From: Microcella indica
GTDB lineage: Bacteria > Actinomycetota > Actinomycetes > Actinomycetales > Microbacteriaceae
Reading direction: 5' to 3'
Length of the DNA stretch: 64,000 nucleotides
Assembly (NCBI RefSeq): GCF_013414345.1
Contig: NZ_CP058670.1
Location: 186,001-250,000 of the forward strand
Shown: positions 6,106 to 47,096 of the stretch, in pieces
Layout of the letters: each line of letters opens with the position of its first letter
Numbering within the stretch: position 1 is the first letter of the stretch
Position numbers and translations under genes: made by a program
The notes under the pieces: generated by a model
The model's input: only the letters and a program-made list of their open reading frames with translations
The model's database searches: none
What the model was told of the DNA's origin: nothing

Positions 6106-6209
6106 GCTCGCAAGCGTGGCACATCCCCGTTCCGCGCGCCCTGCGCGGCAAGCCGAGGAATTTTCTGGCGCTTATAGCGCAGGGTTCGCATCTGGTCAAG
6201 GAAGGGGAC

Positions 6210-6239
6210 TGGACACAGCGGGCAGGGGGCACCTAGTAT
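6210..6239 (+). promoter_or_regulatory. putative rpoB promoter
   Basis: TGGACA at 6210-6215 and TAGTAT at 6234-6239 are separated by 18 bp, a good fit to the housekeeping sigma factor consensus of high-GC Gram-positives. Transcription would start near 6246. No start site has been mapped, so this rests on sequence alone. Confidence 0.55.
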
Positions 6240-6263
6240 TGAGGTTTGCGCTCACCGTGTCTT

Positions 6264-6289
6264 TCAGCCGTCATATGGCGGATGGCTGA
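6264..6289 (+). promoter_or_regulatory. rpoB leader hairpin with ATATGGCG loop
   Basis: TCAGCCGTC (6264-6272) pairs with GATGGCTGA (6281-6289) to form a nine-pair stem with one G-U, closed by the 8-nt loop ATATGGCG. It would begin about 18 nt after the predicted transcription start. The same loop, on a stem of different sequence, occurs directly before rpoA at 45434-45455. This suggests a shared regulatory RNA structure or a DNA/RNA-binding site for RNA polymerase genes. The function is unknown. Confidence 0.55.
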
Positions 6290-6430
6290 GGTGCCCCGAG
6301 TATAGCGGCGGGGCGGATCTCATTCTTCGCAGATCCCCACGAATCGTGGCGCGTTCACTCGACCGAAAATCATCTGTCATCGCCCGACAGGACTTGGGGC
6401 CTCTTCTAGGGGCCCACGGAGGTTAGATCC

Positions 6431-9931
<3,501 letters not shown>

Positions 9932-9981: not shown

Positions 9982-13827
<3,846 letters not shown>

Positions 13828-45298: not shown

Positions 45299-45433
45299 TT
45301 TTTCGCCCTCAGTGACCCGACCCGAGCCCAGCTCGTGTCGGTGCTGGGGTCGCGGCGATGCGATGCATCGCTTCCAGCTCCACCGCACTCAATAACTCAA
45401 CACATCCGGCGGGCCAGCCACCCGCCGCGCCAC

Positions 45434-45455
45434 AAGTGTCATATGGCGGACACTT
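45434..45455 (+). promoter_or_regulatory. rpoA leader hairpin with ATATGGCG loop
   Basis: AAGTGTC (45434-45440) pairs with GACACTT (45449-45455) around the 8-nt loop ATATGGCG. The hairpin ends 18 bases before the rpoA GTG and 5 bases before its AAAGGA site, so it could directly control translation. The loop and closing pairs (TCATATGGCGGA) are identical to the rpoB leader hairpin at 6264-6289, while the outer stem differs. Confidence 0.55.
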
Positions 45456-45473
45456 TGCCGAAAGGAATCCATA

Positions 45474-46469
45474 GTGCTCATCGCACAGCGTCCCACCCTC
45501 ACCGAGGAGAGCGTTTCCGACTTCCGCTCGCGGTTCATGATCGAGCCGCTCGAGCCCGGTTTCGGATACACGCTCGGAAACTCGATGCGTCGAACCCTCC
45601 TCTCGTCGATTCCCGGAGCGGCCGTCACGAGCATTCGCATCGACGGCGTGCTGCACGAGTTCAGCACCATCGCGGGTGTCAAGGAGGATGTCACCGAGAT
45701 CATCCTCAACATCAAGAACCTCGTCGTCTCGAGCGAGCACGACGAGCCCATCACGGCGTACCTGCGCAAGCAGGGCGCTGGCGAGGTGACGGCGGCCGAC
45801 ATCTCCGCACCCGCGGGGGTCGAGATCCACAACCCCGAGCTCGTCATCGCGACGCTCAACGACAGCGCCAAGTTCGAGCTGGAGCTGACGATCGAGCGCG
45901 GTCGCGGCTACGTGAGCGCCACGCAGAACCGCAGCGAGTTCAGCGAAGCGGGGCAGATCCCGATCGACTCGATCTACTCGCCCGTCCTCAAGGTGACCTA
46001 CCGCGTCGAGGCGACCCGTGCCGGGGAGCGCACCGACTTCGACCGTCTCGTCGTCGACGTCGAGACGAAGTCGGCCATCACGCCGCGCGATGCGATCGCG
46101 TCGGCCGGCCGCACGCTCGTCGAGCTGTTCGGCCTGGCCCGCGAGCTCAACACGCAGGCCGAGGGCATCGAGATCGGCCCTGCGCCGGTCGACGCGGTGC
46201 TCTCCACCGAGCTGAGCATGCCCATCGAAGACCTCGATCTGTCGGTGCGCAGCTACAACTGCCTCAAGCGCGAGGGCATCAACACCGTGAGCGAGCTCGT
46301 CGCCCTGTCGGAGACGCAGCTCATGAACATCCGCAACTTCGGGCAGAAGTCGGTCGACGAGGTCAAGGACAAGCTCGTCGAGATGGGCCTCTCGCTCAAG
46401 GACGCCGTTCCCGGCTTCGACGGCGCGCACTTCTACGGCGGCTTCGACGACGACGAGCAGTCGAGCTAG
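45474..46469 (+). CDS. rpoA: DNA-directed RNA polymerase subunit alpha
   Basis: A 331-residue subunit that nucleates polymerase assembly. The N-terminal domain has [23 protein letters not shown]. The C-terminal promoter- and activator-binding domain is at about 250-320 ([38 protein letters not shown]). A short acidic tail ends the protein. GTG start behind GAAAGGA. Confidence 0.99.
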
Positions 46470-46523: not shown

Positions 46524-47096
46524 ATGCCTCAGCCCACCAAGGGTCCTCGCCTCGGAGGAGGCCCCGCTCACGAGCGGTTGCTCCTCGCCAACCTGGCGAC
46601 CGCGCTCTTCACCCACAAGCGCATCACGACGACCGAGACGAAGGCGAAGCGCCTGCGTCCGCTCGCGGAGCGGCTCATCACGTTCGCCAAGCGCGGTGAC
46701 CTGCACGCGCGCCGTCGCGTCATGACCGTCATCCGCGACAAGAGTGCCGTGCACGAGCTCTTCACGGAGATCGCGCCCCTCGTCGCCGAGCGCGAGGGCG
46801 GCTACACGCGGATCACGAAGACCGGGTACCGCAAGGGCGACAACGCGCCTATGGCAGTCATCGAGCTCGTGCTGGAGCCCGTCAACCCGAAGCCCAAGAG
46901 CGCCAAGAAGTCGGCTGCCGCCGAGGCAGCATCGGCTCCGGCCGCCGCGCCTGAGGCAACCGAGCCTGAGGCCGAGGCGACGGACGCTCCGGACGCGGTC
47001 GAGAACGACGCGGATGCTCAGGCTGACGCCGTCGAGTCCACCGACGAGGCGTCGAGCGAGGACGCCTCGAGCGCCGAGGCCGACGACACCAAGTAG
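46524..47096 (+). CDS. rplQ: 50S ribosomal protein L17 with acidic C-terminal tail
   Basis: A 190-residue protein. The L17 core ([24 protein letters not shown] to [15 protein letters not shown]) ends near residue 120. About 65 residues of Ala/Glu/Asp-rich disordered sequence follow. Acidic L17 tails are known in Actinobacteria, but this one is long. It is the last gene of the alpha operon. Confidence 0.98.

Follow-up and report, generated by a model that had tools for sequence, protein, structure and literature searches.

A hairpin with a nearly fixed loop in the rpoA leaders of Actinomycetes and in the rpoB leaders of some lineages

How the amount of core RNA polymerase is set, and how alpha is kept in step with beta and beta', is to our knowledge poorly understood outside E. 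coli. In the window, by which is meant the whole stretch of 64,000 nucleotides of Microcella indica DNA analysed here (contig NZ_CP058670.1, positions 186,001 to 250,000), hairpins with the same loop stand before rpoB and before rpoA, which raises the question of whether the two genes share a regulatory RNA and, if so, what reads it. A first-pass annotation had suggested a common RNA element, or an operator, through which synthesis of the polymerase subunits is coordinated. The analysis supports well that the shared hairpin is an RNA element in which a fixed loop is carried on a covarying stem.

Two leader hairpins in Microcella indica

The hairpin sequences were found where they had been placed, at 6264-6289 and 45434-45455, and folding supports both stems; NCBIfam agrees that the genes behind them are rpoB and rpoA. 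The features concerned are the following, with the basis of each in brackets:

6210-6239, forward strand: predicted rpoB promoter with -35 TGGACA at 6210-6215, an 18-bp spacer and -10 TAGTAT at 6234-6239 (by eye)
6262-6291, forward strand: rpoB hairpin 1, stem 6262-6272/6281-6291, loop ATATGGCG at 6273-6280 (folding)
6292-6315, forward strand: rpoB hairpin 2, stem 6292-6298/6309-6315, loop AGTATAGCGG (folding and genus conservation)
6418-6422 and 6431, forward strand: rpoB Shine-Dalgarno sequence GGAGG and TTG start codon (sequence)
6431-9931, forward strand: rpoB (NCBIfam)
9982-13827: rpoC, after rpoB (NCBIfam)
45407-45427, forward strand: extra hairpin 5' of the rpoA element, CGGCGGG-CCAGCCA-CCCGCCG (folding)
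45434-45455, forward strand: rpoA hairpin, stem 45434-45440/45449-45455, loop ATATGGCG at 45441-45448 (folding)
45461-45466 and 45474, forward strand: rpoA Shine-Dalgarno sequence AAAGGA and GTG start codon (sequence)
45474-46469, forward strand: rpoA, between rpsK and rplQ (NCBIfam)

Regarding structure, rpoB hairpin 1 folds as an 11-bp stem (-15.8 kcal/mol, z -4.1 in RNA folding against shuffles) and the rpoA hairpin as a 7-bp stem (-7.9 kcal/mol, z -1.7, equalled by 14 of 200 shuffles), with the loop AUAUGGCG in both folded stems. Directly 3' of hairpin 1 lies rpoB hairpin 2, CCCCG-AGTATAGCGG-CGGGG, which has the same loop core NATAGCGG, folds with z -1.5 and was not recovered by the covariance model R2 described below at E<=10. 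The two whole leaders gave fold z values of -0.9 and -1.1, and a fold much better than shuffles was seen for rpoB hairpin 1 only. The first-pass annotation makes no mention of the second, tandem rpoB hairpin.

The 12-mer said to be common to both sites occurs in exactly two copies in the 2,585,348-bp genome; allowing one mismatch adds a single place, and its reversed control gave no match genome-wide. Within the window, four places were found at up to two mismatches against a chance mean of 2.73, which is not above chance, and it is the two exact copies that stand out, not the mismatched ones. A covariance model, R1, built from 19 sequences (relatives and both window sites), scored 39.7 bits at rpoA and 33.6 bits at rpoB in the own genome and 19.1 bits at the next place, so that rpoA and rpoB are the only strong targets among the 150 of 806 first-look candidates that were scored; the own-genome matches below 20 bits (L061-L063) lie inside long open reading frames and were rejected as chance. 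Chance as the origin of the shared hairpins was rejected on the 12-mer count, the R1 scores and the covariation reported below.

Other sequences near the two sites were recorded. The predicted promoter block is kept in 24 rpoB upstream regions of the genus, and transcription is expected, from the position of this block, to start near 6245. A TTTGCGC(TC)-like string lies just 3' of the rpoB -10 box in several families (window 6240-6253, L203, L207, L123, L126), and the blocks TTATAGCGCAG and GGTCAAG, 5' of the rpoB promoter (window about 6170-6210), are kept in the genus and could be part of a further promoter or of a site for a regulator. The extra hairpin at 45407-45427 is perhaps related to a hairpin with the loop GGACCGA, GACCAG or similar that some leaders of the class have just 5' of the rpoA element (for example L326, L328, L343, L368 and L370); among the 90 class leaders, 21 have a string GACCGA, GACAGA or GACCAG 5' of the element, the hairpin context not always being clear, and this GGACCGA-type hairpin may be another leader element.

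Distribution of the element and covariation of its stem

Within the genus, TCATATGGCGGA or TCATATAGCGGA was read before rpoA in 23 of 26 genomes; G010 and G022 have a place of this type that is counted apart from the 23, and the places listed for G016 (81% complete), with one mismatch allowed, included none in front of rpoA. Searched with R1 at E<=0.1, 134 of 150 genomes of the family and 133 of 198 of the order had a match (weak matches being checked in part). All 58 loci taken from these searches (L064-L121) have rpoA at the match, as do 39 of 40 further order matches, the exception being L244.

A second model, R2, was built from 51 sequences and gives 32.3 bits at rpoB hairpin 1 and 32.6 bits at the rpoA hairpin of the window, scores that are high by construction. 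Across the phylum it matched 109 of 396 genomes at E<=0.05. The 28 newly read loci comprised 24 rpoA leaders, one rpoB leader and three that were neither, all three from outside the class, and 20 extra class matches comprised nine rpoA leaders and 11 other places. Outside the class, none of the 23 places checked was near rpoA or rpoB (these were the best or selected 23 of 55 listed in 53 genomes, the remainder having a lower score or being skipped). Three genomes of the class (G466, G514, G559) were missed by R2, yet the element was present on reading. Searching the species contigs of GTDB for a pattern of core, Shine-Dalgarno sequence and rpoA start gave at least 120 matches, and of the 80 listed, 79 lie at an rpoA start; those listed include Streptomyces, Nocardia, Corynebacterium, Gordonia, Frankia, Actinomyces, Propionibacterium, Microbacterium and Brevibacterium, and all names among them are actinobacterial save one 'uncultured bacterium'. 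A place in Micromonospora (L445), away from rpoA, was rejected as a chance match. On the 80 named loci R2 gave 93 matches: 79 are rpoA leaders, which had been pre-chosen by the pattern, and the remaining 14 all have E>=0.69.

The class sample was assembled independently of the hairpin, rpoA being located by protein search in 114 of 118 genomes (122 places). Ninety of these leaders were examined (30 returned and 60 fetched), from 89 genomes and 30 families, two of them belonging to second rpoA copies; the other 32 places include genomes of family f22, which were seen as model matches only. The core UCANAURGYGG was found in all 90 leaders, exact in 83 and with one change in seven. Position by position, U, C and A are present in 90 each, the third loop base is U in 52, A in 36 and C in two, and the rest follow as A 90, U 89, R 88, G 88, Y 88, G 90 and G 90; the base facing the first U of the core is A in 19, G in 48, U in 23 and never C. 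The core starts at -31 to -42 from the rpoA start codon (median -35) in 88 of 90 leaders, and all 88 of these have a Shine-Dalgarno-like string (AGGA, GGAG, GAGG or AAGG) between the core and the start codon. In L397 and L400 the same hairpin, which had seemed absent in an initial pass, stands about 45 nt further upstream of rpoA. That pass found core and ungapped stem jointly in 80 of 90 leaders; in eight the core sits on a bulged stem (seven of family f109, in which pairing is retained around the bulged base, and L326). The second rpoA copies L358 and L359, from two f21 genomes, have leaders with a degenerate element (CACATAACGG, CACACAGCGG). An element of 20 nt whose loop hardly varies is present in each of the 90 examined rpoA leaders of a class to which the main antibiotic producers belong.

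Covariation of the stem was assessed in comparison A5 on 78 distinct class rpoA sequences with no cut on pairing, site choice having nevertheless weighed pairing. Paired cells made up 89.0% against a shuffled mean of 68.5, double-change cells numbered 105 against 29.2 in shuffles, and the covariation score was 0.547 against 0.167; none of 500 shuffles reached any of these values, kinship being ignored, and sliding by one to three columns brought the score to 0.151 or less. The number of pairs with a change on both sides was not above shuffles (257 of 500). For the order-level rpoA set and for the rpoB set alike, none of 500 shuffles reached the score or the double-change cells, again ignoring kinship. 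The pair counts of comparisons A2-A4 lean to structure, since their site lists had been pre-filtered at three or more of four stem pairs; L144, L192 and the second L207 site were excluded from A3 and A4. Compensatory base changes across orthologous leaders, a mark of a structured cis-regulatory RNA leader, were found in A2, A3 and A5. The alternative of an operator, if this acts as DNA, is disfavoured: sequence in the outer arms varies with complementarity retained, and no conserved DNA half-site is left.

The rpoB site has a narrower distribution. In the genus an rpoB match was obtained in 24 of 26 genomes, and the tandem hairpins are present in all 24 of those leaders. Hairpin 1 has CANAURGYGG exactly in 22 and with one change in two, its stem and the N position of the loop varying and the remaining loop being nearly fixed; hairpin 2 reads CCCCGAG[TA]ATAGCGGCGGGG in all 24. 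At order level, a core-like string was found within 420 nt in 26 of 90 rpoB leaders and 21 were accepted as hairpins, 14 of GCGG type and seven of GTGG type. The GTGG-type sites lack the two pairs beside the closing C-G, and four GCGG-type sites of one genus (f9: L169, L171, L179, L184) are uncertain, being 5' of a likely promoter. L144 and L192 were rejected as weak or far. L173, L181 and L188, of family f12, were rejected as hairpins, the core being present and an ungapped stem absent; in these the core CATATGGCGG is flanked as in GCGCCAGG-core-TCGACGCG, exactly or nearly so, and lies 186-295 nt ahead of the RpoB reference point, an arrangement that could represent the rpoB site in an internal-loop form. 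At class level the site was found in four of 28 rpoB leaders, three of them from one genus; it was thus not accepted in 69 of 90 order-level and 24 of 28 class-level leaders. Wherever a promoter is readable by eye, the rpoB hairpin tends to sit early in the transcript. A tandem second hairpin was also seen in other genera, at L142 (1843-1868, reverse strand) and in L037 behind the first hairpin there, with the loops CAGATAGCGG and AAGATAGCGG.

The earlier expectation that orthologous leaders keep the loop and that their stems covary therefore holds for rpoA across the class, and for rpoB in the genus and some lineages only. Of the proposal itself the common RNA element stands, and coordinated subunit synthesis remains a conjecture: because the rpoB site is patchy, joint control of rpoA and rpoB would exist only in some lineages, unless rpoB is otherwise controlled elsewhere.

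Proposed action at rpoA and alternative readings

An invariant loop on a freely varying stem is the usual sign of recognition by another molecule, mostly a protein. We tentatively propose, with somewhat less than even confidence, that the hairpin is a cis-acting RNA operator at which a trans-acting factor, likeliest the polymerase, an assembly intermediate or a bound factor, blocks initiation of rpoA translation; the ligand, the repressive sign and the translational step at rpoA are what we infer. The stem, variable in sequence, would display the fixed loop UC-ANAURGYG-GN for recognition by an RNA-binding factor that acts in trans. The free rpoA hairpin would leave open the Shine-Dalgarno sequence behind its 3' arm, and the bound factor would overlap the landing site of the 30S subunit, a clash that is to be expected of a factor bound to this hairpin. 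Translation of rpoA could in this way be repressed independently of the upstream ribosomal-protein genes on the same mRNA. Action on the mRNA is favoured because in eight leaders (L344, L360, L364, L388, L391, L392, L395, L399) the rpsD stop codon is 11-21 nt from the hairpin, leaving scant room for a promoter; the upstream gene in many rpoA leaders ends in a LIVELYSK-type C-terminus and is uS4 (rpsD), as checked for L331. Occlusion of this kind cannot account for the rpoB hairpins of the window, since they are far from the Shine-Dalgarno sequence and near the 5' end, the rpoBC transcript of the genus presumably showing the loop core twice within about its first 70 nt.

A ligand related to the polymerase is suggested because the target set consists of alpha and, in some lineages, beta/beta'. 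Candidates would be RNA polymerase, an assembly intermediate (alpha2-beta, for example) or a factor bound to the polymerase, with the feedback loop closing on polymerase concentration. The narrower claim that RNA polymerase or an assembly intermediate is itself the repressor, reading UCANAURGYGG on its own mRNAs, is less likely than not, and a polymerase sensor on both operons would not be general because beyond the genus most leaders gave no accepted rpoB site.

Several other readers of the loop were weighed. It is unlikely that rpoA-rplQ is repressed through binding of an alpha-operon ribosomal protein (uS4, uS11 or bL17) to the hairpin, although rpsD stands before rpoA in much of the class and rplQ after it. 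One source has uS4 controlling the alpha operon of E. coli and cites a 1984 paper on the rpoA-rplQ DNA of that species whose title raises the question of a second regulatory site for S4, which is a further point for such a reading (PMC10931766). Against it, the hairpin is kept where rpsK precedes rpoA (in the window and in other leaders with a uS11-type end), rpoB, which is not a ribosomal-protein gene, carries the same loop, and in Streptomyces the hairpin in front of rplQ is another one. The own rpsD, located elsewhere, also appears to be without the element because there was no third strong own-genome match among the 150 of 806 candidates scored. Mimicry of rRNA was rejected, the model having no match at the own 16S place, which likewise speaks against a ribosomal protein, and mimicry of the 16S 690 region for uS11 was dropped because the string UAGCGGU there lies, as we take it, in a helix strand.

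The places of the element, intercistronic in the alpha operon and early in rpoBC, would both suit mRNA processing or protection, with a nuclease or protector controlling how fast the rpoA-rplQ segment and the 5' end of rpoBC decay; this is quite unlikely, since stability hairpins have no need of an invariant loop and strong own-genome scores fall at polymerase genes only (again 150 of 806 scored). Very unlikely is a reading of the loop by NusA or another Nus factor as a boxC-like site that alters pausing, antitermination or translation. The loop tail NAURGYG partly resembles the actinobacterial boxC, which we take to be AAUAGUG, the NusA boxC site being GAACUCAAUAG-like; the own rrn leader holds GAGAACTCAACAGCGTG about 209 nt before 16S, and CTCAATAACTCAAC lies upstream in the own rpoA leader. 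The match is however limited to a few bases and calls for a gap of one base, and at the loop position that is U in 89 of 90 leaders the own boxC has C. NusA binds extended single strands and is not known to bind hairpin loops, and with no third strong match among the same scored candidates there is none at nusA. Loop-loop pairing with a small RNA, whose fixed partner would be of the type CCGCUAU, is highly improbable: the variable loop places are mostly R and Y, which a fixed U and G partner could tolerate, but R/Y changes are ordinary transitions and another base stands there in four of 90 leaders. That the loop is -10-like and read by sigma is a weak proposition.

If RNA polymerase or an assembly intermediate does repress rpoA through the hairpin, the class that includes Streptomyces, Nocardia and Corynebacterium would sense free polymerase directly, and alpha synthesis would be uncoupled from the synthesis of ribosomal proteins in the same operon. 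The hairpin offers a defined RNA bait for the regulator, and the loop a defined mutation with which to shift the polymerase level.

Relation to described elements

The first-pass annotation knew of no described element with such a loop, in agreement with the searches made here: Rfam gave no match at the element (in the window at gathering thresholds and in ten leader loci at E<=10), and among the literature matches listed, which cover older work thinly, no published description of it was found. The element may have been overlooked, as it is one short hairpin amid ribosomal-operon genes without an Rfam family match. Among described elements, Lacto-rpoB, the L17 leader and the uS4 alpha-operon leader come closest to it.

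The Alpha_RBS is a pseudoknot at the start of the alpha operon. This uS4 leader (RF00140) also exerts translational control on an operon that contains rpoA; its only match in the ten loci lies in L002 (524-569), some 1 kb ahead of the element, and reaches 16.9 bits where the cut-off is 38. A site at the rpsD leader, which would be characteristic of a uS4 leader, is not among the strong own-genome matches (150 of 806 candidates scored), rpsD is not adjacent to rpoA in the window, and wherever rpsD precedes rpoA the element stands after rpsD and before rpoA. The Lacto-rpoB motif of Lactobacillales (RF01709) is likewise, in the available part of its description, a candidate structured RNA named for rpoB (PMC2864571). 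It belongs to another phylum. The element described here is foremost associated with rpoA, and the Lacto-rpoB model gave no match at gathering in the window and none at the element in ten loci (E<=10).

Regarding control of the polymerase itself, rpoBC of E. coli is regulated independently by autogenous control, which like the proposal made here is a feedback on polymerase subunit synthesis; the passage available describes no hairpin common to rpoA and rpoB (PMC10931766). The actinobacterial Ms1 RNA binds core polymerase and affects the polymerase level, and as described in the part of the source at hand it differs from the element in being an independent small RNA, about 300 nt long, and not an mRNA leader (PMC9130861).

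The L17 ribosomal leader of Actino- and Proteobacteria comes from the same rpoA-rplQ region and the same phylum as the element, and Table 1 of its description, a source available in part, gives rplQ alone as the regulated gene (PMC7247131). On that description and by position the element, which stands before rpoA and one gene upstream of rplQ, may be distinct from it. Between rpoA and rplQ a hairpin of the type CCCCGGTACCTGATACGGCCGGGG was seen in Streptomyces and Streptosporangium (L455, L456, L457, L460, L479), and this hairpin before rplQ is perhaps the published L17 leader. The bL17 protein encoded in the window (46524-47096) has 190 amino acids, its best NCBIfam match being the L17 'sunset domain variant' with 266.3 bits against a cut-off of 280.
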